From: Chromatiaceae bacterium
GTDB lineage: Bacteria > Pseudomonadota > Gammaproteobacteria > Chromatiales > Chromatiaceae
Length of the DNA stretch: 37,766 nucleotides
Direction: 5' to 3'
Assembly (NCBI GenBank): GCA_028277465.1
Contig: JANQGF010000318.1
Span: 1-37,766 of the forward strand
The position numbers and the translations under genes are program-made. Every line of letters starts with the position of its first letter. Position 1 is the first letter of the stretch. Below are positions 1 through 32,013 of this stretch, in pieces. A model generated the notes under the pieces. It was not told the origin of the DNA. It saw only the letters and a list, made by a program, of their open reading frames with translations, and did not search any database.

Positions 1-25
1 AGTCAGTGGATAAGTCTTGCATGAG

Positions 26-97
26 GAGCCGTGTACGGACCCGTACGCACGGTTCTGTGGGCAGACGGGAGGGCTACCGCCCTCCCTCTGACCCGAT
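26..97 (+). mobile_element. 3' end of a group II intron (domains V and VI)
   Basis: Bases 26-55 fold as domain V: 26-33 pairs with 48-55 (one G-U), there is a two-base CG bulge at 46-47, and 34-37 pairs with 42-45; the catalytic AGC triad sits at 27-29. Bases 59-94 fold as domain VI: 59-61 with 92-94, 63-65 with 87-89, and 67-74 with 79-86, leaving an unpaired A at 91. That A is about seven bases before a CCGAT-type 3' end at 97, the usual branch-point arrangement. The intron reverse transcriptase and domains I-IV would lie left of the window. The apical loop of domain V is not the usual GNRA loop. The fold is read from the sequence; its identity follows from the known domain V/VI architecture. 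Confidence 0.82.
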
Positions 98-153
98 ACT
101 TTGGGCGGTCGGCTGAGGCTTACGTTATTCGCCAGAGGTTTTGTGTGGCTCAA

Positions 154-161
154 CCTGCGCC
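154..161. repeat. Target-site duplication, left copy
   Basis: The octamer CCTGCGCC directly abuts the left terminal repeat of the IS256 element and is repeated exactly at 1609-1616 on the other side. Eight- or nine-base duplications are characteristic of IS256-family insertion. Confidence 0.92.
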
Positions 162-187
162 GAGCTATGTGCAAATCTGGTGTATGA
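162..187 (+). repeat. IS256-family left terminal inverted repeat
   Basis: Begins GAGCTATG and contains AATCTGGTGTAT. It matches the reverse complement of 1583-1608 at 22 of 26 positions, with mismatches at positions 9, 10, 12 and 25. Confidence 0.9.
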
Positions 188-205
188 GCCCGATTCGTAG
201 CCGGC

Positions 206-1495
206 TCAGGCGGCCTTCCGCTGCTCTTCCGGTGGGCTGTCAGTCACCGGGATTCCGTTTGCGTACCGAGTGCCTTGCAGCAGCTCAGCGACCTTCTTCG
301 GGGCGCGGATGCGCCGCCAGGTCTTGGCGGCCTCCTCGGCCAGCTTGAAGGCCAGACCGAGGAAGGAGCTGCGCGAGACGCAGTTCTTCGTGCGGGTGGT
401 GCGATGCCGCACGGTGGCGAACGTCGACTCGATCGGGTTGGTCGTGCGCAGGTGCACCCAATGCTCGGCCGGGAAGTCGTAGAAGGCCAGCAGTGCCTCG
501 CGGTCCTGCATCAGCTTCTCGGTCGCCTTCGGATACTTCGCCTGGTAGCGGGCCACACAGCGCTCGAAGGCGCGCACGGCCGCCTCGCGGGTGTCGGCCA
601 TCCAGATCGCCTGCAGATCCGCCTTGGCCTTGCCCTGCAAGGACTTCGGCAGCGCGGCCAGGACGTTGCCCATCTTGTGGAACCAGCACCGCTGAGGCAT
701 GGTCTCGGGATAGACGTGCTCGAGGGCTGACCAGAAGCCCAGCGCCCCGTCGCCGACCGCCAAGCGCGGACCGAGCTTCAGACCCCGGGCTTTGAGGTCG
801 CGCAGCACATCGAGCCACGACTCGGTGGATTCGCGCAGACCGTCGCTGATGGCGACCCAGTCCTTGCGGCCGTCGGCCTTGACGCCGATGATCACCAGCA
901 GACAGAGCCGTGGGTCGTCGCTTGAGCGCAGGGTCGTGTAGATGCCATCGGCCCACCAGTAGGCGTAGCGCTCATCGGCGAGCGAGCGGCGGTTCCAGGC
1001 CTGGTACTCCTCGCCCCACTGGGCCTTCAGGCGGCTCAGCGCGGCCGGGGAGAGTCCCTTCGCACCCTCGCCGACCAGCATCTCCAAGGCCCCCCCGAGA
1101 TCGCCGCTGGAGATGCCCTTCAGGTACAGCCAGGGCAGCGCCGCGCCCACCCGCGCGCTGCGTCGCACGGACGGCGGGGCCAGCTGCGAGTTGAACTTCA
1201 CGCCGCCACCGGAGCGGTCGCGCACCTTCGGCACCTGCACCTCCACCGGGCCGATCCCGGTCAGGATTTCGCGCGCCGGCAGGTAGCCGTTGCGCACCAC
1301 CGCCTGGCGCCCATCCGACAACTGAACCCCGGCCAGGTCATCGAGCAGCACCTGCACCTCCGCCTCGATCGCCCGTTGCAGAATCTCACGCGCCCCGCGG
1401 CGCACCAGCTCTTCCAGCGGCAGGCCGATCTCGCTCAGCTCGCCGGCCTGGCCCGGCCTTGCGCTCCCCGTTCGCTTACTCGTATCGTCGTGCAT
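206..1495 (-). CDS. IS256-family (Mutator-type) transposase
   Basis: A 429-residue DDE transposase, the usual length for IS256 transposases, that cuts and rejoins the ends of its own element. Visible family signatures are YWWADGIYT near residue 180 (first Asp), LAVGDGALGFW near 245 (second Asp), the CWFHKMGNVL segment near 270, and NPIESTFATVRHRT near 355 (catalytic Glu). ATG at 1495 is preceded by GGAGG seven bases upstream, so the start is well supported. The gene fills almost the whole element and looks intact. Its C-terminus ends 19 bp inside the left terminal repeat. The catalytic roles come from the known family; intactness is what I see. Confidence 0.97.
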   Translation of the reverse strand: MHDDTSKRTGSARPGQAGELSEIGLPLEELVRRGAREILQRAIEAEVQVLLDDLAGVQLSDGRQAVVRNGYLPAREILTGIGPVEVQVPKVRDRSGGGVKFNSQLAPPSVRRSARVGAALPWLYLKGISSGDLGGALEMLVGEGAKGLSPAALSRLKAQWGEEYQAWNRRSLADERYAYWWADGIYTTLRSSDDPRLCLLVIIGVKADGRKDWVAISDGLRESTESWLDVLRDLKARGLKLGPRLAVGDGALGFWSALEHVYPETMPQRCWFHKMGNVLAALPKSLQGKAKADLQAIWMADTREAAVRAFERCVARYQAKYPKATEKLMQDREALLAFYDFPAEHWVHLRTTNPIESTFATVRHRTTRTKNCVSRSSFLGLAFKLAEEAAKTWRRIRAPKKVAELLQGTRYANGIPVTDSPPEEQRKAA

Positions 1496-1582
1496 GGCGC
1501 ACCTCCAACGTTGCTGCTTTGGGTCTCGACAACCGCATTGTCAGCAACGGTGCGCCGCCTTCCAACCTCAATCAGGCCCCAC

Positions 1583-1608
1583 TGATACACCAGATTCGAG
1601 CATAGCTC
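1583..1608 (-). repeat. IS256-family right terminal inverted repeat
   Basis: Reverse complement begins GAGCTATG and contains AATCTGGTGTAT, pairing with 162-187. The outer edge at 1608 is immediately followed by the second target duplication. Confidence 0.9.
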
Positions 1609-1616
1609 CCTGCGCC
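1609..1616. repeat. Target-site duplication, right copy
   Basis: Exact CCTGCGCC copy of 154-161. Together the two copies fix the insertion point of the IS256 element to the base. Confidence 0.92.
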
Positions 1617-1635
1617 CAGTCGTGACGCTTGTGAA

Positions 1636-3132
1636 TTAGGCAAAGATCGTAGCACGGCTCAAGCATTGCGCAGGCTGAGCCACGCTGCAGAGTTCCAACG
1701 GAGCACGTTCAAGGTTTGTCGCTTTTAAAATGAAAGGCTGTCGTATAACGTAAAGGACAAGTCGTGTGAGCGCAGCGAACCACGACTTGTCCTTGTAGTT
1801 GGACGAGCCCGGCGAACTGCTGCCGGACCTATAGAGAAGCAAATATGTTTTTCGGGGCCGCCCCCGTGCATCGGCTGCGGATAGAGCCGATGGAGTCAGC
1901 GCACGTTTGGCCGGCGGAGAGCCCTTGGATCGGGTGCGTTTTGCCGGAGTTTTCGGAGAAATAACCGTTTTTCGGCCGCACAGACCCCTCGGGGCTCGCT
2001 TCCCCGATCGGTAAGGTGGGTGTTGGCGAGGGCGGTTACATCGGCATCTCCAAGAGCGTTGCGCAGGCCGATCCGGTGGTTTCCGATTCCTCGGGTACGG
2101 GATCACCGTCAGGGTGATGAGCACGCTGCCGCATTGCTTGCAGCACCAAGGGGGCTTCTCCTGCGGCTGAGGAAGGCATACCCGCAACAGCAGGTGCAGC
2201 CGTTGGATCAGCCGCTTGCAGTTGCCGTGGAGGAAGCCGTAGTCGCGACTCCGGCGAAAGCCCTTGGGCAAAACGTGTTGGAGCACTCGCCAGAGAAAGT
2301 CAGCGCCCGGAAGCGTTCGCGTCTGGGTTGCGCCGCTGTTCTCCGTGTAGCGGAAGGTCACTTCGCCGTCTTCGCAGGCCAGGATGTTCTTCTCCGCGAG
2401 GACGCCACGATAGAGATAGCGCCCGAGGTAGAGCAAGGCCTTTTCGCCGTTGCCGACCCACTCGCAATCGACGACCCATTCGCGCGGCAGGTCGACCTTC
2501 ACCGTCCAGGCTTGCTCCTTCATCGCCTGGAACCACTTGCCTCGAAAGACCTTCGCCAGTGCCTTCTCGGGGAAGAGGAACTTCCCCTGCTTGGTGCGCC
2601 AGCGATTGGAGACGGGATCGATGGCCCCGGCGGGGACGACAATATGCACGTGGGGGTGAAAATCCAGCGCCCGGCTGTGCGTATGCAACACGGCCGTTGC
2701 GCCCAGCCTTCCCTGCAACGTCTTGTCATTCAGTCCGAATTCGGACAGGGTCTGCCAGGCGAGCTTGATGAGAAGATCATCGGCTTGGCGCTGGTTCGAG
2801 TAGACCAGGGCACGCAGCTGGAACGGCAGGGTGAAGGGAATCAGGTAGTAATCCACCGGCAACAGCTTGGCCCGTTGGCGCGCGAGCCACTGCTCCACCG
2901 CCTCGTTCTGGCATTGGGGGCAAGCGCGATGCCCGCACGAGAGCGGGAATGAAGCCTCGCTGCGGCAGTCGTGACAATGGATTGCCGCCGTGCCGCATGC
3001 CTCAGTGCGACAGTGCAGGATCGCCGACAAAGCGTTGCGCTGCTCCGGGAGCAGTCGGTCGGCGTAGTGCGCCTCCAGATCCGCCGCAAAGGCCGCCGCA
3101 AAGGCCGCCGCCACCTCGGCCAAGCGGATCAT
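1636..3132 (-). CDS. IS91-family Y2-type transposase with read-through tail
   Basis: A 498-residue protein. The first ~370 residues match IS91-type rolling-circle transposases. An N-terminal Cys/His zinc-binding region (CHDCRSEASFPLSCGHRACPQC, residues ~50-71) is followed by an HPHVHIVVPAG histidine motif near residue 170 and a C-terminal segment with the LGRYLYRG and GFLHGN signatures. ATG at 3132 (MIRLAEV) is chosen because the longer upstream reading frame overlaps the integrase gene. IS91 transposases are usually about 400 residues; here the frame continues through the 1753-1794 hairpin and ends at 1636, so the last ~45 codons probably lie outside the mobile unit. It lies 79 bp downstream of the tyrosine recombinase, with which it probably forms one element. 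Confidence 0.88.
   Translation of the reverse strand: MIRLAEVAAAFAAAFAADLEAHYADRLLPEQRNALSAILHCRTEACGTAAIHCHDCRSEASFPLSCGHRACPQCQNEAVEQWLARQRAKLLPVDYYLIPFTLPFQLRALVYSNQRQADDLLIKLAWQTLSEFGLNDKTLQGRLGATAVLHTHSRALDFHPHVHIVVPAGAIDPVSNRWRTKQGKFLFPEKALAKVFRGKWFQAMKEQAWTVKVDLPREWVVDCEWVGNGEKALLYLGRYLYRGVLAEKNILACEDGEVTFRYTENSGATQTRTLPGADFLWRVLQHVLPKGFRRSRDYGFLHGNCKRLIQRLHLLLRVCLPQPQEKPPWCCKQCGSVLITLTVIPYPRNRKPPDRPAQRSWRCRCNRPRQHPPYRSGKRAPRGLCGRKTVISPKTPAKRTRSKGSPPAKRALTPSALSAADARGRPRKTYLLLYRSGSSSPGSSNYKDKSWFAALTRLVLYVIRQPFILKATNLERAPLELCSVAQPAQCLSRATIFA
1753..1794. other. Terminal hairpin of the IS91-like unit
   Basis: Bases 1753-1766 (AAGGACAAGTCGTG) are perfectly complementary to 1781-1794, giving a 14-bp stem with a 14-base loop. 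It lies beyond the conserved part of the Y2 transposase, where rolling-circle-type IS91 elements carry a hairpin near one end. It could also act as a transcription terminator for the minus-strand transposase, although no clear T-run follows. Confidence 0.65.
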
Positions 3133-3211
3133 GACTTGTCGTTCCACCGCAGCACGAACGACTCTAGCAATTGCCCCTGGCGCTCGCGCGCCTGGGCGCT
3201 GGTCACATCGG

Positions 3212-4039
3212 TCAGTGGGCATAGCGGGCGGTGGTGGCAGGGCTGACATGGCCGAGGATGCCCTGAAGCTCGCGCAAATCCACGCCCAGTTCCAGCATAT
3301 GGGTCGAGAACAGGTGGCGCAGCGAATGCACGGTAATGCGCAGCCCGATCCCGCAGTTGGACACGGCGGCACGCATCGCCGCCTGAACCCCACCGGCGTG
3401 CATCGGCGTGCGCGCGGCGCACATAAGCGGCGCCCCGCCGCGCGGATTCGGGAACAGCAAGCGCGGGTTCTCATGGGTCTTCCGGCACTTTCGAAACGTG
3501 TGCAACAGCGGCTTGGTGATGGGCACATAGCGATCTTTGTTGCCCTTGCCGCCGCGGACGTGGATGCGCATGCGCTGCCCATCGATATCCCCGACCTGCA
3601 ACGCCAATCCCTCGCCGAGGCGCAATCCGGTGCTGTAAAGGGTCACGAAGAATACCCGGTAGCGCAGCTTGTAGACCGAGCCGAGCAGGCGGTGGGTCTG
3701 CTCGCGGGTGAGCACATCGGGCAACCGCTCTGGCCGCGGCGGCGGCTTGACGATATCGACCCACTTCCAGGGTCGCTCGAGGACATGCCGATAGAAGAAC
3801 TGCAGCCCGCAGCGGTCGAGCTTGATCGTGCTCCAGGAGTGGGTCTTGAGCAGATCGGCGAAGTAGGTTCGTCGATCCTCCGCGCTCAGTGCGTCGGGGC
3901 AGCGGTCGAAGTAGTCCGCCACGCGGCGCACTGCACGGCTGTAGGCATCCTTGGTGGCCTTCGCCTTGCCCTGAAGCGTCAGGGCGCGCTGCATGCTCTC
4001 GTACAGGGGGTGAAAGCGTGCTTGTTCCGCATCATTCAT
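3212..4039 (-). CDS. Tyrosine recombinase (integrase) of the IS91-like unit
   Basis: A 275-residue phage-integrase-family protein. The N-terminal SAM-like DNA-binding domain (residues ~10-90) is followed by the catalytic domain. Catalytic residues are visible as STGLRLGE (Arg), GGKGNKDR (Lys), HSLRHLFSTHML (His-x-x-Arg), LGH, and the nucleophile Tyr in TARYAH at the very C-terminus. ATG at 4039 is preferred over the longer frame start at 4087 because GGAG lies eight bases upstream and the protein then begins MNDAEQARF. Many IS91-like elements pair such a recombinase with the Y2 transposase. The last catalytic residue lies only three codons from the stop, but nothing appears missing. Confidence 0.93.
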   Translation of the reverse strand: MNDAEQARFHPLYESMQRALTLQGKAKATKDAYSRAVRRVADYFDRCPDALSAEDRRTYFADLLKTHSWSTIKLDRCGLQFFYRHVLERPWKWVDIVKPPPRPERLPDVLTREQTHRLLGSVYKLRYRVFFVTLYSTGLRLGEGLALQVGDIDGQRMRIHVRGGKGNKDRYVPITKPLLHTFRKCRKTHENPRLLFPNPRGGAPLMCAARTPMHAGGVQAAMRAAVSNCGIGLRITVHSLRHLFSTHMLELGVDLRELQGILGHVSPATTARYAH

Positions 4040-4060
4040 GAGGCTAATCTCCAAGCAGTT

Positions 4061-4091
4061 GTCGCGAGATTCGCGACTCCCCGACATCGGG
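4061..4091. other. Two tandem hairpins upstream of the recombinase gene
   Basis: GTCGCGA-GAT-TCGCGAC (4061-4077, 7-bp stem) is followed directly by CCCGA-CA-TCGGG (4080-4091, 5-bp stem). They lie 22 to 52 bp upstream of the recombinase ATG. They could be part of the second (origin-type) end of the IS91-like unit or a regulatory leader; the sequence does not decide between these. Confidence 0.5.
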
Positions 4092-4197
4092 AAGCGTGGA
4101 GATTATCGGTGGCTTACCTCATCTGCCGCGCAGCGGCTCCGTCCAACAGACGCGTCAACCGATCCTTGTCGGACGTTCATGATTCGAACACTGCACG

Positions 4198-4356
4198 TCA
4201 CGGCTGCGATAATAGACGATCGAAATACTCGATCGTGCTCCGCAACCCCTCGTCGATTTCCACTCGCGGCACCCATCCAAGGAAGGAAGGGTGCGAACCG
4301 AGGAAGCCGGCTCCGTCAGTGACCAAGATGCATCTTCGGGAATCCCAGCTGCGCAT
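4198..4356 (-). pseudogene. Internally deleted SDR nucleotide-sugar epimerase/decarboxylase relic
   Basis: This minus-strand frame of 52 codons reads ILVTDGAGFLGSH directly followed by LGWVPRVEIDEGL, then STIEYFDRLLSQP and a stop. The first segment is the N-terminal Rossmann motif of extended SDR enzymes (normally TGGAGFLG). The second is the extreme C-terminal tail typical of UDP-glucuronate decarboxylase or dTDP-glucose dehydratase relatives. Roughly 250 residues between them, including the YxxxK catalytic centre, are gone. Near-identical TTCCTCGG and TTCCTTGG flank the join, so a recombinational deletion is plausible. It cannot be enzymatically active. It is at the downstream end of the polysaccharide cluster, next to the IS91-like unit. 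Confidence 0.8.
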
Positions 4357-4646
4357 CTGGCTTCAATCCCTCTCCACACGCCTGGCGATCGACACAGGCC
4401 ACTGCGAACCCGCCGGCCATGAAACCTAATCCCCATTTCGCCGGCAAACCACATAGGCCCCAAGACCGACCAGAAGGCGATTCGCGGCGAGAGACACCGC
4501 GAATGGCTTTCTGCATAGGAACAAACGCCCGATGGCTTTCCCTTAGACACGATCAGGTGGCTCGGTTGATCCAGGCAGCCAAAATCAAGCGTCATCCGAC
4601 ACCTGCGGCGCCTTCCGAGTGGCAGCGGATTGGCACGTGCCCAGAT
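4357..4646. other. Gene-free stretch, probably decayed coding DNA
   Basis: No intact gene is recognised here. Minus-strand frames are open over short distances (for example 4316-4516), but their translations match nothing I can name with confidence. Its place between the secreted-protein gene and the SDR relic suggests eroded cluster genes. Confidence 0.45.
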
Positions 4647-5696
4647 CTATTCTGAAGGCGCGACCTCAAGATCGCGTGGGGGAGTTAGCGGGACAGGCCC
4701 TCCCGACCCCGGAGGCGCAATCGGCTGTTTCGAGACAATAAGCTCATCATACCAAATATAGGCCGGCGTCGGAGCCCCGCGCGAGATCTCTGTCATGTAG
4801 GTTTCCAGTCTTACACGATTAAAGAAATCGTCCCGGTTGTTATTCCAGGTCACGCCGTTCACTCGGTGAAACTGCAGCAACGGCGAACCATCGTGGGATT
4901 CCCAGGCCTCCACTGTCGTATCACTCCCGCCCCACCTCCCGAGCTGAATCTTCTGGTAGATGGTGTACCACTTGTCAGCGACAGGTTCGAAGCATCCGTC
5001 ACCATCGCCGATTCCGGCAAACTGATTCTGATAGTGGCAGTTGTACCCGGACCCATTCGGGCTGGGAACAAGATTAGCGCCCTGCTGAATCAGACAATCA
5101 GCGGTGCAACGACTCAGCCTCTCATTCGTGTTGACATCCGTAAACCAACCGTCGCCGCAATTGGTGTACATGCTAAGCCGACCGCCACTAAGAATTGTGG
5201 TAAATTCCGAGCCCTGGCAGGTGGAACTTGAGCCATGCATGTTGACGTGTTTGATCGAACTGCGCCAATAATTGTTATTATTCGAGAAATAGGAGGGAGT
5301 TGCTTTCCAACGATACTGAATGTAGATCGTGTCGCCCGAAGAGAAAGGGCTTGAAGTATTCCCCGACCAAGCTCCACCGATGTTCGCGTAACCGATCCCA
5401 GACCGGAATGTGAAGCGCAAGCTGCCTGCCCCAGAGGTCTTCTCATCTGTCGAGAACATCCCCTGCGTTGAGCCGTCACCTGCAGTCTGAATTCCAGCAG
5501 ACACAGCGGACGCCGAATCGAAACCGTTGCAGAGGACCACCCCGCTCGCGCTGCAGCGTGCTTGAAAGTCTTCTTCCGCAGTGAGTGCGTCCGCAGACTG
5601 GTACCAAAAAGCTAGTACACCCGCCATCAAGATAGCGGACAGGTTGCTCCCAAAATAACCGTTCAAAGTACGGTTCAACTCATGAGGGACGGACAT
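4647..5696 (-). CDS. Secreted beta-sandwich protein, possible polysaccharide lyase or glycan-binding protein
   Basis: A 349-residue protein from ATG at 5696 (a longer frame reaches 5822). Residues ~10-37 include a hydrophobic stretch (AILMAGVLAFW) followed by ADALTAEEDF, consistent with a signal peptide. The remainder is rich in Asn, Gly, Ser and aromatic residues, with beta-strand segments such as IYIQYRWKA, KWYTIYQKIQL and AYIWYDELIVSKQPI. This pattern is common in concanavalin-A-like jelly-roll lyases and binding modules. At least seven Cys suggest disulfides in an exported protein. The C-terminus is Pro-rich. It is the last intact gene of the polysaccharide cluster, so cleaving or binding the polymer is a reasonable inference. 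No catalytic residues could be assigned. Confidence 0.7.
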   Translation of the reverse strand: MSVPHELNRTLNGYFGSNLSAILMAGVLAFWYQSADALTAEEDFQARCSASGVVLCNGFDSASAVSAGIQTAGDGSTQGMFSTDEKTSGAGSLRFTFRSGIGYANIGGAWSGNTSSPFSSGDTIYIQYRWKATPSYFSNNNNYWRSSIKHVNMHGSSSTCQGSEFTTILSGGRLSMYTNCGDGWFTDVNTNERLSRCTADCLIQQGANLVPSPNGSGYNCHYQNQFAGIGDGDGCFEPVADKWYTIYQKIQLGRWGGSDTTVEAWESHDGSPLLQFHRVNGVTWNNNRDDFFNRVRLETYMTEISRGAPTPAYIWYDELIVSKQPIAPPGSGGPVPLTPPRDLEVAPSE

Positions 5697-6102
5697 GGAG
5701 GTTGCTCTCCAGAAGTCAAGATTTCGACGGGCAGCGGTTTGAAACGCAAATTCCGGATATGCTGCCTTCGTGATTACACTTTCGAATAGCCCGATCTGCG
5801 TGACCAGGCTGGGCGCGCACAATCAGCGCCTCGTCCACGGGTGAGGATCCGAGTTTCACCAACGTTTCAAGGCTTGCCGCAACGAGCGGCTTAGGAACTT
5901 TCCTAATGCTCGGCTACCGTTATAGACCAAAGTGGTTAGACGGCAGTCGGGCAAGGCTCAGCCACTATAATGCTGGACCGAAAACGAAGCTGCGACGCCG
6001 ATCGCAATGTTGGCCCAGCGTCCTCAAGGTTGCCAGGCTCACTTCCGTCGCGTCAACCGGCCTCGGCGGAGCTCGGCCTTTTTGACCTTCCGACCATGGC
6101 TT
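5697..6102. promoter_or_regulatory. 406-bp intergenic region with a 16-bp palindrome
   Basis: No gene is recognised between the amidotransferase stop and the secreted-protein ATG. A perfect palindrome TTAGGAA-CT-TTCCTAA lies at 5891-5906. On the minus strand a TATAAC sequence lies about ten bases upstream of it (5917-5922), the arrangement expected for an operator near a transcription start. No convincing -35 hexamer accompanies it. The region could give the secreted protein its own control. Confidence 0.45.
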
Positions 6103-7980
6103 TCAGCTCAATCCATATGCCTGGAACCAAAGTTGGAAAACGATCAGTGATAATAGCTGATCCGTGTAATCTGCCCGGCGCAGGTAGTGGTCTTCGACCA
6201 GTCTTGTTACACGTTCTAGATTAAAAATCCCTTGGCGCTGCAAATAAGGTCCTTGAAGAAGCTCGTCCACGAGTGGACGAAGCTCCCGACGGAGCCACAC
6301 GCCGACAGGTGCCCCGAAACCTTTCTTGCGCTGCTCATAGACATAGTCCGGCAGGCGACCGCGGAAAGCTCGCTTCTGAAGGTGACGCAGCTTCATCCCC
6401 CTGATCTTGATGCGCGCTGGAGTTCGGGCGGCGAACTCGACAACCCGGTGGTCGAGAAAAGGCACCCGTGTCTCAACGGAAGCGGCCATCGTCATCTTAT
6501 CCGTAAGCATGAGGAGTTGCTCGGGCAGTGACATCTTCAGGTCGAAGTACATCATGCGGTCCAGCAGTTCACTGCCATCACATTCTTCAAAAAGGATCGA
6601 ATAATGATCGGGCACCGACCCTGCTTGACGCGCGAGTTCATCGGCTAGATTCTCGTCAAAGAGGAGCGTGTACCGTCCGTATTGCTCTTCGAGCGGCAGA
6701 TGCGCCGTCTCGAGATACGCCCGCGCAAGCCGCGACAGGTTGAGCAGACGGCTATTACGATCGACGGGCATACGGTTCAATGCCCGCAATAAGAGCCCCT
6801 GACGGACCCCCGAGGGTACCAACTTCATATAACCGGCGAGCGGTACGTTCAGGTAACGTCGATAGCCCCCGAAGAGCTCGTCCCCACCGACGCCCGAGAG
6901 CACGACCGAGACCGTATCATGGGCGAGTTCTGCCACCAGGTAAGTGACGAGGAAGGAGGAGTCAGCCACAGGTTCGTCCATTGCTGCGACCAATCTTGGC
7001 AACAGATCTTCGACGTCCGGGCGCACGAGGATCTCATGATGAGACGTTTCATAATCTCGCGAGAAGCGTCCCGCAGCTTCAAGCTCGTTATACGCCTCAA
7101 AGCCTTTGCCGAAACCGATGCTGTAGGTATTTATGGGTTTGGAATCGATCGAGTTCATTAGGTGAACGATGCCGCTCGAGTCGAATCCGCCCGAGAGAAA
7201 GGCTCCGAGTGGAACATCGGCGATCATCTGAAGACGCACACTGTCGCTAAGCAAGGCATATAAGCGTTCGGCCAGCTCGGACTCGTCTAGCGCGAATTTG
7301 TCCCGATAGCTAAGCCGCCAGTATTCCCTTTCCCGGATCTCGCCCGCCCGCGCCATGAGCCAATGCGCAGGCCGCAATTTCTTGATGCCCTTGAATAACG
7401 TGGATGGAGATGGCGTAAAGCCGTAACGCAAGAAGCCGCCTAACCCCTCGAGATCGAGCTCCGGCCGGATCTCTGGATAGGCAAGAATCGCCTTGATCTC
7501 TGACGCGAATATGAGTTTCTCGTCGTCCAAATAGTAGTAGAGCGGCTTTATACCGATGCGGTCACGAACGATCAGGAGGCTCCGCTCAACGCGATCCCAA
7601 ACCGCTAAGCCAAACATCCCGTTCAAGGTCTCGAGAAACTCAATCCCGTGCTCGGCGTAAAGATGTAAGACCACCTCGGTATCTGTGTGGGTTCGAAATC
7701 GGTGGCCAGCTCGCTCGAGCTTGGCACGCTCTTCCTTGAAGTTGTAAACCTCGCCGTTGAAGACAATGACGTAACGTCCGTCCGGAGTGAAGATTGGCTG
7801 ATGACCACCAGAAACGTCGATAATACTGAGCCGGCGCATGCCCATGCCCAAGTTTCCATCCACATGGAAACCTGCATCATCGGGACCCCGATGCACGATC
7901 CGCTCGGCCATGGCCTGAAGATCCTCCTTGACGACCTTCCGATCAGAAGCGAAGTAATAGATACCCACAATGCCACACAT
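6103..7980 (-). CDS. asnB: Asparagine-synthase-like amidotransferase, first copy
   Basis: A 625-residue glutamine-hydrolysing synthetase. Met1 is followed by Cys2 of the class II glutaminase domain (MCGIVGIYYF), with RGPDDAGFHV (31-40), NGEVYN (75-80) and RDRIGIKPLYY (139-149). The ATP-binding synthetase domain carries the SGGFDSS loop at 263-269 and SGVGGDELFGGY further on. Family members transfer glutamine nitrogen to a carboxylate. In XrtA-type polysaccharide clusters this subfamily is a standard companion and probably amidates an uronic acid or acts in protein sorting, rather than making free asparagine. ATG at 7980 is certain because Cys2 must be N-terminal. It is 42 bp downstream of the membrane GT2. 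A second, divergent copy lies at 20675-22549. Confidence 0.95.
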   Translation of the reverse strand: MCGIVGIYYFASDRKVVKEDLQAMAERIVHRGPDDAGFHVDGNLGMGMRRLSIIDVSGGHQPIFTPDGRYVIVFNGEVYNFKEERAKLERAGHRFRTHTDTEVVLHLYAEHGIEFLETLNGMFGLAVWDRVERSLLIVRDRIGIKPLYYYLDDEKLIFASEIKAILAYPEIRPELDLEGLGGFLRYGFTPSPSTLFKGIKKLRPAHWLMARAGEIREREYWRLSYRDKFALDESELAERLYALLSDSVRLQMIADVPLGAFLSGGFDSSGIVHLMNSIDSKPINTYSIGFGKGFEAYNELEAAGRFSRDYETSHHEILVRPDVEDLLPRLVAAMDEPVADSSFLVTYLVAELAHDTVSVVLSGVGGDELFGGYRRYLNVPLAGYMKLVPSGVRQGLLLRALNRMPVDRNSRLLNLSRLARAYLETAHLPLEEQYGRYTLLFDENLADELARQAGSVPDHYSILFEECDGSELLDRMMYFDLKMSLPEQLLMLTDKMTMAASVETRVPFLDHRVVEFAARTPARIKIRGMKLRHLQKRAFRGRLPDYVYEQRKKGFGAPVGVWLRRELRPLVDELLQGPYLQRQGIFNLERVTRLVEDHYLRRADYTDQLLSLIVFQLWFQAYGLS

Positions 7981-8022
7981 GAGGACTGGTCTCCGGAGAC
8001 TATTTCCGAGCTGTCACGACGG

Positions 8023-9201
8023 CTAGCGGCCAGCCGTTCGGATGTGGTCCCAGGTCACATGGCGAACGCCTCGCCACTCGTCCCACAGCCCGAGAAAACC
8101 CGCCAGGTTGATCCCATAAAAGTAGTAAAGAATCGACACCACTCGGGGCTGAGGGCGTCCCAAGCGGTCGAGCAGAGCCCCAAGCGCAGCAACCGCTACC
8201 GAGCCGTTAATCAGGAACCAGGTCCAGGGATACAGGCCTCCTTGGCCAACTAGACCCCAATTGGTCAGCCAGGCCAAGAAAATCAAAGGAAGCGCGTACC
8301 AACGGATGACCTTATGCGATACCAGCATGAAGATGAAGCGACCATGCGCACCGGGCTTCAATAAGTGACCGTACCGGCGGACTGCGCGCCAAGCCCGGTT
8401 CACTATCCGGCGCTTGCGCCGGAACTCTCGCTGCAGGGTCTCGCCAGACGCCTCGTAGCAGCGGGCCTTGGGGTTGAAGACTCCCCGGTAACCGGCCGCC
8501 ACCACCTGCAACGGATTGACGAAGTCACTGATATCGTCGTCCTCCAGCGTACGAAACAACTCACGCCGCAAGGCATAAATAGCGCCATCCCCACCAACTA
8601 CGCTGTGCACGTCCGACTCCATTCGTTTGAGAGCCAATTCAAACTGCCAGTAGAGGCCTTCCCCTTCTCCCGAGCGCCCCTTTTCTACGTCCGAGTAGAG
8701 TGCAGCACCCACGGCATAACCGACCACCGGATCGGAAAAGCAACCGACGAGCTCTTTGAGCGCGTTGCGCTCGTACATCGAATTGGCGTCCGAGAAGACA
8801 ATGATCTGACCAGCAGCCGAAGCGACTGCTTGATTCAGCGCCGCCGATTTCCCGCGCCGCTCTGGCTGGCGAACGAGCTTCACACGCCCGGTCCTATCCC
8901 CGATGGAACGAACAATATCATCCGTGTCATCGGAACTCGCATCGGAGGCAACGATTATCTCCAATAGATCCTCCGGATAATCCGACTCGAGTGCGTTAGC
9001 CAGCTTAGGCCCGATGATCGTTTCTTCATTGAAGGCCGAGATAACTATAGTCAAACGTGGAAGCTCCCGACTCGAATACTCCATGTTTCGTTTCATTGGG
9101 CTCCACTTAGCAAGCACGCGCAGGAGGATCGGATAAATCAGATACGGATATATGACGAGGAAGGATGTCACAGCGAAAATCATCGTGAGCACTAGAACCA
9201 T
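8023..9201 (-). CDS. Membrane glycosyltransferase, family GT2
   Basis: A 392-residue protein. An N-terminal membrane segment (residues ~3-25) precedes a GT-A domain with VISAFNEE, ASDASSDDTDD, FSDANSMYE (DxD-like) and the KRRIVNRAWRA segment that stands where processive GT2 enzymes have QxxRW. Two or three C-terminal membrane helices follow (residues ~295-360). It probably adds sugars to the growing polysaccharide at the cytoplasmic face of the inner membrane. It starts at ATG 9201 and follows the ligase gene by only 7 bp, so the two are probably cotranscribed. Donor and acceptor are unknown. Confidence 0.92.
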   Translation of the reverse strand: MVLVLTMIFAVTSFLVIYPYLIYPILLRVLAKWSPMKRNMEYSSRELPRLTIVISAFNEETIIGPKLANALESDYPEDLLEIIVASDASSDDTDDIVRSIGDRTGRVKLVRQPERRGKSAALNQAVASAAGQIIVFSDANSMYERNALKELVGCFSDPVVGYAVGAALYSDVEKGRSGEGEGLYWQFELALKRMESDVHSVVGGDGAIYALRRELFRTLEDDDISDFVNPLQVVAAGYRGVFNPKARCYEASGETLQREFRRKRRIVNRAWRAVRRYGHLLKPGAHGRFIFMLVSHKVIRWYALPLIFLAWLTNWGLVGQGGLYPWTWFLINGSVAVAALGALLDRLGRPQPRVVSILYYFYGINLAGFLGLWDEWRGVRHVTWDHIRTAGR

Positions 9202-9208
9202 GATTGCA

Positions 9209-10627
9209 TCACCTTTTACTCGAAGTGCGCCCGCTCGCGACCGGCGCTAAAAGACCCGATGAATCGTTCACAGTCTGCTCCAACCGTTCGCTGAACGATC
9301 CCCGAGACGATAATCCTGCGTTTGTTCTCCGGACACGCGATTGGCCCGACGTCTTTCTCTCGATGCCACTCTGATTCGCCTCCATGACTGCCACGATCGC
9401 CGCGATCCAGATCACGATCTCTGCTTTTGCCATGTTAGCAAACTGCCCGTTAATCCAATAAACCACCAAAGCCGTACCGAGCGCCGCAACAAGTGCCAAT
9501 GCTTGCACCGAGACGTCGTCAATATGCCGCCTCCTCAAACGAAGAATCGCGCGTGTGATCTGAATGTGAAACATCGCAATGAGCACTATACCGATCACTC
9601 CATGATCCACCAAGATCGCCATCACGGTGTTGTGTGCTGACCGAACCGCCTTACCATCCTTTGCGGTCAAGAGATACGAAGGCATATATTGCGGGCTGAG
9701 CAGATCATTTCCTCGGTGCCCCACTCCCAAAGGATGATCAAGAAACATCCGAAGATTCGCCTCGGCGATATCCAACCGCGAAGCGGCACTTGCTTCCATC
9801 ATACCGGTGTCATCCGCCGGTTTGATCGTCGACATCCGCTCCCAGAACTCATCGTCCGCAACAATGAAGACCAAGACAACGCCAAGCCCCAGATATGGAA
9901 AAATGCGCTTTCTAAATGATGGCGGCACCAAGAGCATTGCCATCGGAGCTGCTCCAACGAGACCGACGAAAGCCCCCCTTGTTTGCATCAAGATAATCGA
10001 ATTCACAATAAAGGGTATCGCAAGAAAAGAGATCCACCTCTCCCATTTCGCGAAGAACAGGAAGAAGAAACCGGCAAAGGCGAGAGCGGTCGACACATGC
10101 ATCGACGCAAACGCCGAGCCGGCCACGTCTCCGGTCCCAATGGTCTCTAGTCGCCCACCCGAGTGAGTCTGCCACGCCAAATAACCCCAGTAGAAACAAC
10201 CCAGAATGTGTGCCACGAGGAACTGTCGGATTCTCTTGGAGTCATCGAGCGCCGCATAAACCAGTGCGAACATAACCACGTACTTGGTGAAAAGGGTGGC
10301 AAAGAACAGATGATATCCTGGACCCAAGGCGACTGGGGTCTGCAACCAAAGCCAAAGCGTGAAGACGATCAGGACTCGCGAGCTAGCATGTCGGTGCCAC
10401 GGCACCCGATCCTTCGAACCTGGATAGACGACGACTGCCGCCATGGTCACGATAGCCGACAAGAGCGACCAGCGCAGGTTCGGTAGGCTCTCACCCCACC
10501 ACGCGGTATCTGGCCCCATATAGAAAGCCAGCATGTAAGCGAAGAGCCCGAAGATCGGATGTCTTACAAATGCCAACCCTGCAAAAGCAAAGAACGCCCC
10601 TACAAAGAACAGAGCTGTCAGGCTCAC
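9209..10627 (-). CDS. O-antigen-ligase-like membrane protein, XrtA-associated type
   Basis: A 472-residue polytopic membrane protein with roughly ten hydrophobic segments. The N-terminal FGLFAYMLAFYMGPDTAWW and LPNLRWSLLSA stretch resembles the putative O-glycosylation ligases of exosortase A systems (DUF5935/TIGR03097-like). The periplasmic Wzy_C signature is visible as SAHNTVMAILVDHGVIG near residues 335-350. Such proteins join or polymerise glycan units on the periplasmic side. The start is GTG at 10627; no ATG near the beginning would keep the first helix. The C-terminal ~60 residues are polar and cytoplasmic-looking. Whether it polymerises or ligates cannot be read from the sequence. Confidence 0.88.
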   Translation of the reverse strand: MSLTALFFVGAFFAFAGLAFVRHPIFGLFAYMLAFYMGPDTAWWGESLPNLRWSLLSAIVTMAAVVVYPGSKDRVPWHRHASSRVLIVFTLWLWLQTPVALGPGYHLFFATLFTKYVVMFALVYAALDDSKRIRQFLVAHILGCFYWGYLAWQTHSGGRLETIGTGDVAGSAFASMHVSTALAFAGFFFLFFAKWERWISFLAIPFIVNSIILMQTRGAFVGLVGAAPMAMLLVPPSFRKRIFPYLGLGVVLVFIVADDEFWERMSTIKPADDTGMMEASAASRLDIAEANLRMFLDHPLGVGHRGNDLLSPQYMPSYLLTAKDGKAVRSAHNTVMAILVDHGVIGIVLIAMFHIQITRAILRLRRRHIDDVSVQALALVAALGTALVVYWINGQFANMAKAEIVIWIAAIVAVMEANQSGIERKTSGQSRVRRTNAGLSSRGSFSERLEQTVNDSSGLLAPVASGRTSSKR

Positions 10628-31042: not shown

Positions 31043-32013
31043 GATGCGGCAACCGATCGCTGGGCCCGCCACCACTCGACCAGACGGGTAAGACCTTCTT
31101 TCAGACCCACGGTGGCTCGGAAACCCAGCAGACGCTCCGCCTTGGCGGTATCCGCGAGCCGTCGCGACACAGGGTTGACCTTGCGCTCCGGCCCATACTC
31201 GGGCTGAAGAGCCGAGTCCATGACCTCGAGCAGCGCAGCCGCGAGCTCGTTGAGGCTGGTCTCGGTGCCGCTCGCCACGTTGAAGACGTCGTCGGTGACC
31301 TCCGACTCCAGGGCCAGGATGTTCGAGCGTGCGACATCCTCGATATAGACGAAATCCATCGTCTGGCTTCCATCGCCGAGGATGAGCGGCGGCGTCCCCG
31401 ATGCGATGCGCTCCATCCAGCGGATCAAGACCTCTGTATACTTTCCGTGAATATCCATGCGCGGACCATAGACGTTGAAGTAACGCAAGGCCACGTAGGG
31501 GAGGCCATACATGTCGTTGAAGGCCCGGAGCAGGCCTTCCAGCATCACCTTGCTCGCTCCGTACCAGGTTCGGTTGTTGTAGGGGTGATGGTCTTCGCGC
31601 GTGGGAAAGCTGTCCGCCAGCCCATAGACCGAGGCCGAAGAGGCGGCCACCAGCTTCTTTACACCGGCCTGGTGCGCGGCCTCGACGACCTCGTAGGTGC
31701 CGTCGCACATCACCTCCATCGCCTCGCGAGGCTCCGCGGCACAGGCGGTGATCCTCAGCGTCGCCATGTGGATGACTGCGTCCATGCCTTCGGTCGCGCG
31801 CTGCAACGCCGGTCGGTTGCGAATGTCGTCACGAATGAGTGTGACCCTGGGGTCCTCGAGTGCCTGCTCGACATTGGCGAGCGTGCCCCGTTGAAGATTG
31901 TCGAGGATGACGATCCTTGCCGGCGCATGGTCGCGTAGCAGAATGTCGATAGTGGTCGAACCGATCAGGCCGCAGCCCCCCGTGACCAGGATATTGGTAC
32001 CTTCGATATCCAC
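31039..32013 (-). CDS. NAD-dependent epimerase/dehydratase (extended SDR)
   Basis: A 324-residue nucleotide-sugar enzyme. The Rossmann motif TGGCGLIG is at 11-18, the catalytic Ser region ASSASVYG at 124-131, and YGASK with the Tyr-x3-Lys pair at 151-155; NVYGPRMDIHG, GDGSQTMDFVYIEDVA and VGLKEGL follow. Such enzymes oxidise or epimerise NDP-sugars, commonly at C4. The start is GTG at 32013 with AGGGGG about ten bases upstream, 3 bp after the formyltransferase stop. The following aminotransferase starts inside its stop codon, so their products probably act in sequence. UDP-GlcNAc or UDP-glucuronate as substrate is inference. Confidence 0.94.
   Translation of the reverse strand: MDIEGTNILVTGGCGLIGSTTIDILLRDHAPARIVILDNLQRGTLANVEQALEDPRVTLIRDDIRNRPALQRATEGMDAVIHMATLRITACAAEPREAMEVMCDGTYEVVEAAHQAGVKKLVAASSASVYGLADSFPTREDHHPYNNRTWYGASKVMLEGLLRAFNDMYGLPYVALRYFNVYGPRMDIHGKYTEVLIRWMERIASGTPPLILGDGSQTMDFVYIEDVARSNILALESEVTDDVFNVASGTETSLNELAAALLEVMDSALQPEYGPERKVNPVSRRLADTAKAERLLGFRATVGLKEGLTRLVEWWRAQRSVAAS

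Follow-up and report, generated by a model that had tools for sequence, protein, structure and literature searches.

The window, that is, the whole stretch of 37,766 nucleotides of a Chromatiaceae contig that was analysed, carries on its minus strand a 52-codon open reading frame at exactly 4198-4356, here called the stub, with the translation MRSWDSRRCILVTDGAGFLGSHPSFLGWVPRVEIDEGLRSTIEYFDRLLSQP followed by a stop codon. The list of open reading frames, the alignment to an intact relative and position-specific scores show that it is very probably what remains, still in frame, of a gene for UDP-glucuronate decarboxylase (UXS). UXS converts UDP-glucuronate to UDP-xylose. The polysaccharide cluster of the window is of the XrtA/PEP-CTERM type, as its deacetylase scores 398.5 against a cut-off of 276.2 for TIGR03006, while the amidotransferase (TIGR03108) and the ligase (TIGR03097) score below their cut-offs. 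The stub is located downstream of this deacetylase, at a distance of about 25 kb. Its upstream neighbour in transcription is an orphan gene of 391 amino acids (4647-5822, minus strand) with no Pfam or PDB match, a best NCBIfam match at E 0.25 that is not credible and, at E 1e-5, only itself as a match among the 190 genomes searched. On the other side (1636-4087, minus strand), Pfam and NCBIfam models recognized a transposase of the IS91 family, with a XerC/D-like tyrosine recombinase ahead of it.

Several further features of mobile elements are present in this part of the window. The IS91 element has a hairpin with 26-base arms at 1741-1806, and in relatives pieces of the element are 65-77% alike, with one match of 86% at 1746-1812. 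The 98 bases at 1652-1749 are identical to the end of another contig of the assembly (C302) and diverge at 1749/1750, marking the boundary of a repeat or element. An IS256/Mutator-type insertion sequence occupies 162-1608; its 27-base inverted ends are 85% complementary and the same 8 bases, CCTGCGCC, flank it on both sides, indicating a simple insertion.

Two ends of a UDP-glucuronate decarboxylase

The reference for the stub alignments was P0002, an intact protein of 322 residues from the relative G106. This protein is a UXS, as it matches human UXS1 at 9e-126 and the nearest epimerase at 1.6e-39. The N-terminal 22 codons of the stub (4291-4356, minus strand), which hold the start codon and the NAD-binding loop, are 68% identical to residues 1-22 of P0002, and the two start codons align. 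The C-terminal codons FLGWVPRVEIDEGLRSTIEYFDRLL (stub residues 25-49; 4210-4284, minus strand) are 64% identical to residues 298-322, and the stop codon stands three codons past the last aligned residue. Between these parts, the junction codons CCT TCC (Pro-Ser, codons 23-24; 4285-4290, minus strand) fit neither side clearly. Residues 23-297 of P0002, including the catalytic core, have no match near the stub. Relative to P0002, the net loss at the junction is about 273 codons (about 820 bp), an estimate since the lengths of UXS proteins vary by several residues. The initial annotation had read this locus as an SDR gene of which only the two ends are left and had proposed an alignment to UDP-glucuronate decarboxylases; the alignment bears this out, as both ends match one and the same UXS in order. 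Elsewhere in the window, P0002 has matches of 28-29% to the window's own complete SDR gene near 31069-31995; the remaining ones are at chance level (E 0.8 and worse).

Position-specific scores were built on intact UXS sequences, 43 rows with one duplicate (P0002 and L030) and thus 42 distinct ones, which are not a random sample since they were collected by their similarity to P0002 or the stub. The N part of the stub scores 40.3 bits and the C part 63.4 bits, or 40.2 and 63.3 bits with the duplicate row removed. In the six frames of the window both ends are the top-scoring places; the next best scores, 17.8 bits (N) and 0.0 bits (C), fall in the window's own SDR gene. In 20,000 shuffles of the stub peptide, the maxima were 7.7 bits (N) and 0.9 bits (C), which are far below the scores of the stub and exclude chance.

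Sequence libraries alone would not have named the stub a UXS. Pfam gave no match, and NCBIfam gave weak matches with no UXS model among them, the best being dTDP-glucose 4,6-dehydratase (TIGR01181; 17 bits, E 0.0024, residues 26-45), with the stub too short for the cut-off of 365 bits. Among solved structures, epimerases, UDP-glucuronate decarboxylase 1 and dehydratases were matched, with a UDP-glucose 4-epimerase (4zrm) as the best at E 5.7e-7 and UXS1 at 2.2e-5; in the four alignments that were printed, the stub is matched to both ends of the chain. The choice of UXS over dehydratase comes from the comparison with relatives, for which SDR genes were chosen by motif pattern from the collected loci (38 UXS and 17 other SDRs). 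The C end of the stub (63.3 bits) lies within the range of the 38 UXS (60.0-85.2 bits), whereas the 17 other SDRs reach at most 0.4 bits, in a comparison in which tails were clipped 330 residues past the motif, so that some long genes may be shortened. The stub also has the UXS-type C-terminal pattern LGW.P...EGL..TI.YF, and is 50-68% identical to the C ends of 14 loci from other genomes (L014-L027). In its N part, the stub contains FLGSH, which is present in 24 of the 38 UXS and in none of the 17 other SDRs. The earlier guess of a uronate decarboxylase or dehydratase is thereby narrowed to the decarboxylase. Compared with human UXS1 (structure 2b69), a member of the extended SDR family, the stub shares the first 22 and the last roughly 25 residues of UXS, in order and with a homologous start codon, but is without about 273 residues that include the catalytic core, and has Asp in place of the first Gly of the NAD-binding loop.

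A different origin has to be considered for the short N part: it could have come from a separate SDR gene standing next to the UXS that supplied the C end. The stub would then be a fusion scar, left after a larger deletion had removed the rest of both tandem genes. Such an arrangement exists: at L029 a UXS (6370-7299) lies in tandem with SDR genes at 7323-8309 and 8338-9306. In addition, genome G117, in which the search with P0002 gave no UXS match, holds a non-UXS match to residues 2-23 of the stub with 68% identity, about as good as those of UXS. On the other hand, the N end scores 40.3 bits despite its Asp, within the range of the 38 UXS (36.4-57.2 bits) and above the 17 other SDRs (at most 39.5 bits), a small margin and thus a narrow separation. 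The distribution of FLGSH and the alignment of the start codon and first 22 residues with P0002 also speak against a fusion, which is therefore considered improbable.

Decay of the stub and the origin of the join

The stub differs from intact UXS in more than its length. At position 14, the first Gly of the glycine-rich loop TGxxGxxG, it has Asp, where all 42 distinct intact UXS have Gly, so this loop is no longer intact. Among the 16 columns that are at least 95% conserved in intact UXS, 14 are kept and two are violated, the second by an Ile where 41 of the 42 have Leu. The catalytic core, marked by Tyr-x-x-x-Lys, is absent, making the stub a relic rather than a working member of the UXS family. 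As most of the cofactor domain is missing too, any product would be inactive.

Judged from sequence comparison, the stub is very likely an internal-deletion pseudogene of a UDP-glucuronate decarboxylase, of the ordinary kind, with its two ends left joined in frame. A stretch of about 820 bp in the middle of a UXS gene would have been lost, probably in a single event and possibly through illegitimate or microhomology deletion, and by chance the reading frame would have been kept where the first 22 and last roughly 25 codons met. The NAD-binding loop would have suffered at least one point change (Gly14 to Asp), before or after the deletion. For a random deletion, the chance of an open frame across the junction is one in three, and such a frame would equally fit a retained peptide.

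Two candidate causes of the deletion were rejected. The initial annotation had taken similar repeats flanking the join as the mark of a deletion. These are TTCCTCGG (4298-4305, minus strand; GFLG codons) and TTCCTTGG (4277-4284, minus strand; FLGW codons), the two copies of an imperfect repeat, 13 bases apart. Repeat-mediated deletion leaves one copy. Since both copies remain, they are not a deletion footprint and are simply the FLG codons of each end of the stub. In the 42 intact relatives, the two FLG places share 3-7 of 8 bases, with 7 of 8 in only one. The second candidate, insertion of the IS91 element, with its unmapped end towards the stub, is not supported as a cause, because the deletion lies within the gene and both ends are kept.

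The open frame, together with the UXS-homologous start codon and a GAGGG that ends 11 bases ahead of the ATG, would also suit a genuine small protein that arose from UXS and is conserved. The stub has matches at E 0.01 or better in 54 of the 190 genomes (its own included; 53 of the 189 others). A match at this threshold that spans both ends was found in none of the 190 genomes besides the window itself, the relatives listed holding no other genome of its genus (g1). Both ends are present at each of the 14 other-genome loci from this search, their starts separated by about 0.84-0.89 kb; the UXS at L019, one of the 14, is broken by a stop and a frameshift. Among 31 loci of a species-level genome collection there is no 52-aa form: at 30 of them a UXS can be aligned up to residue 322, starting no later than residue 11, and at L070 the alignment begins at residue 81. 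None of the 211 matching plasmid records covers 80% of the stub, no plasmid matches the DNA of 4090-4650, and the viral contigs have no 52-aa form. Conservation of the short frame in other genomes, which would have spoken against a deletion fossil, was thus not observed in the 189 other genomes, the 31 loci, the plasmids or the viral contigs. Together with the loss of an invariant Gly, this makes a conserved small protein extremely unlikely.

A further alternative is that an intact gene was present and its middle was dropped by the assembler. The assembly is indeed a draft of 418 contigs. In contrast, the genome is rated 99.94% complete and the UXS middle is absent elsewhere in it: no other UXS was found in the own genome, where the best P0002 match has 30% identity over residues 6-318. 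The stub also has a weak match in the own genome (E 0.94, residues 5-47) on contig C157, which falls on the first part of a long SDR gene (open frame 499) and not on a second stub. No repeat of at least 14 bases is listed at the junction in window positions 1-6200, a result that covers the deleted form only, and the replacement of an invariant Gly by Asp suggests that the decay is genuine. An assembly artefact is accordingly very unlikely. The internal-deletion pseudogene is known from one copy, and no intact ancestor was seen at its locus.

The letters GFAVACVD had suggested by eye that the fossil of a UDP-glucose dehydrogenase might lie upstream as well, in 4316-4552, but this candidate was rejected. 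This region has no Pfam or NCBIfam match and a best PDB match at E 1.1. At E 1 it matches 85 of the 190 genomes, the best besides the window at E 0.0017 with 35% identity and internal stops, and the own dehydrogenase loci (L058 and L059) are absent from the 40 best rows, which extend to E 0.007.

Pathway context and UXS relics in the family

The initial annotation had also suggested that the lost enzyme once belonged to the neighbouring polysaccharide pathway. P0002 has matches at E 1e-40 in 59 of the 190 genomes (own included), or 56 without G147, G166 and G180 (35-38% identity), and the XrtA-system deacetylase is present in 62 of the 190, own included. In 17 genomes, picked out by eye from these two sets of matches, both UXS and deacetylase are present. 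In four of these they are on the same contig, with the nearest pair about 70 kb apart (G104); in 13 they are on different contigs and cannot be judged, so this is weak negative evidence on linkage. Membership of UXS in the neighbouring pathway is thus unsupported, though not refuted. A literature search on UXS with pseudogene and exopolysaccharide found nothing related. The own genome has two genes of the UDP-glucose/GDP-mannose dehydrogenase family, and therefore UDP-glucuronate may still be made.

Within the family, at least seven further genomes contain broken UXS remnants (G025, G037, G058, G070, G080, G104 and G107), a count that is not systematic. Six are located at L031 (G104), L052 (G058), L053 (G107), L054 (G037), L055 (G025) and L057 (G080) and show truncation, frameshift or stops, and in G070 two UXS pieces lie in one region. 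The remnants at L055 and L057 may be genes that were cut short at rearrangements. At L031 (7161-9547), two damaged UXS are adjacent; one match ends at residue 97, and the other has a stop and a frameshift at about residues 25-50. A full-length UXS match (E 1e-40) is present as well in G037, G058, G070, G080 and G104, whereas G025 and G107 have a relic without one at this threshold. Unlike the stub, these relics keep one end or carry a frameshift or stop, and a collapse to two ends was not seen in them as far as they were examined.

It is conceivable, though doubtful, that UXS is lost again and again in this family and that surface sugars could be switched as the supply of UDP-xylose is repeatedly gained and lost, an idea for which UXS alone was counted. 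The stub has little wider importance, given how common deletion pseudogenes are, but it is an example of a two-ended gene relic that is recognizable from raw sequence. For the organism itself, the stub suggests that the lineage once had, and then lost, the gene for a UDP-xylose-making enzyme, which would be a small piece of the history of its polysaccharides.
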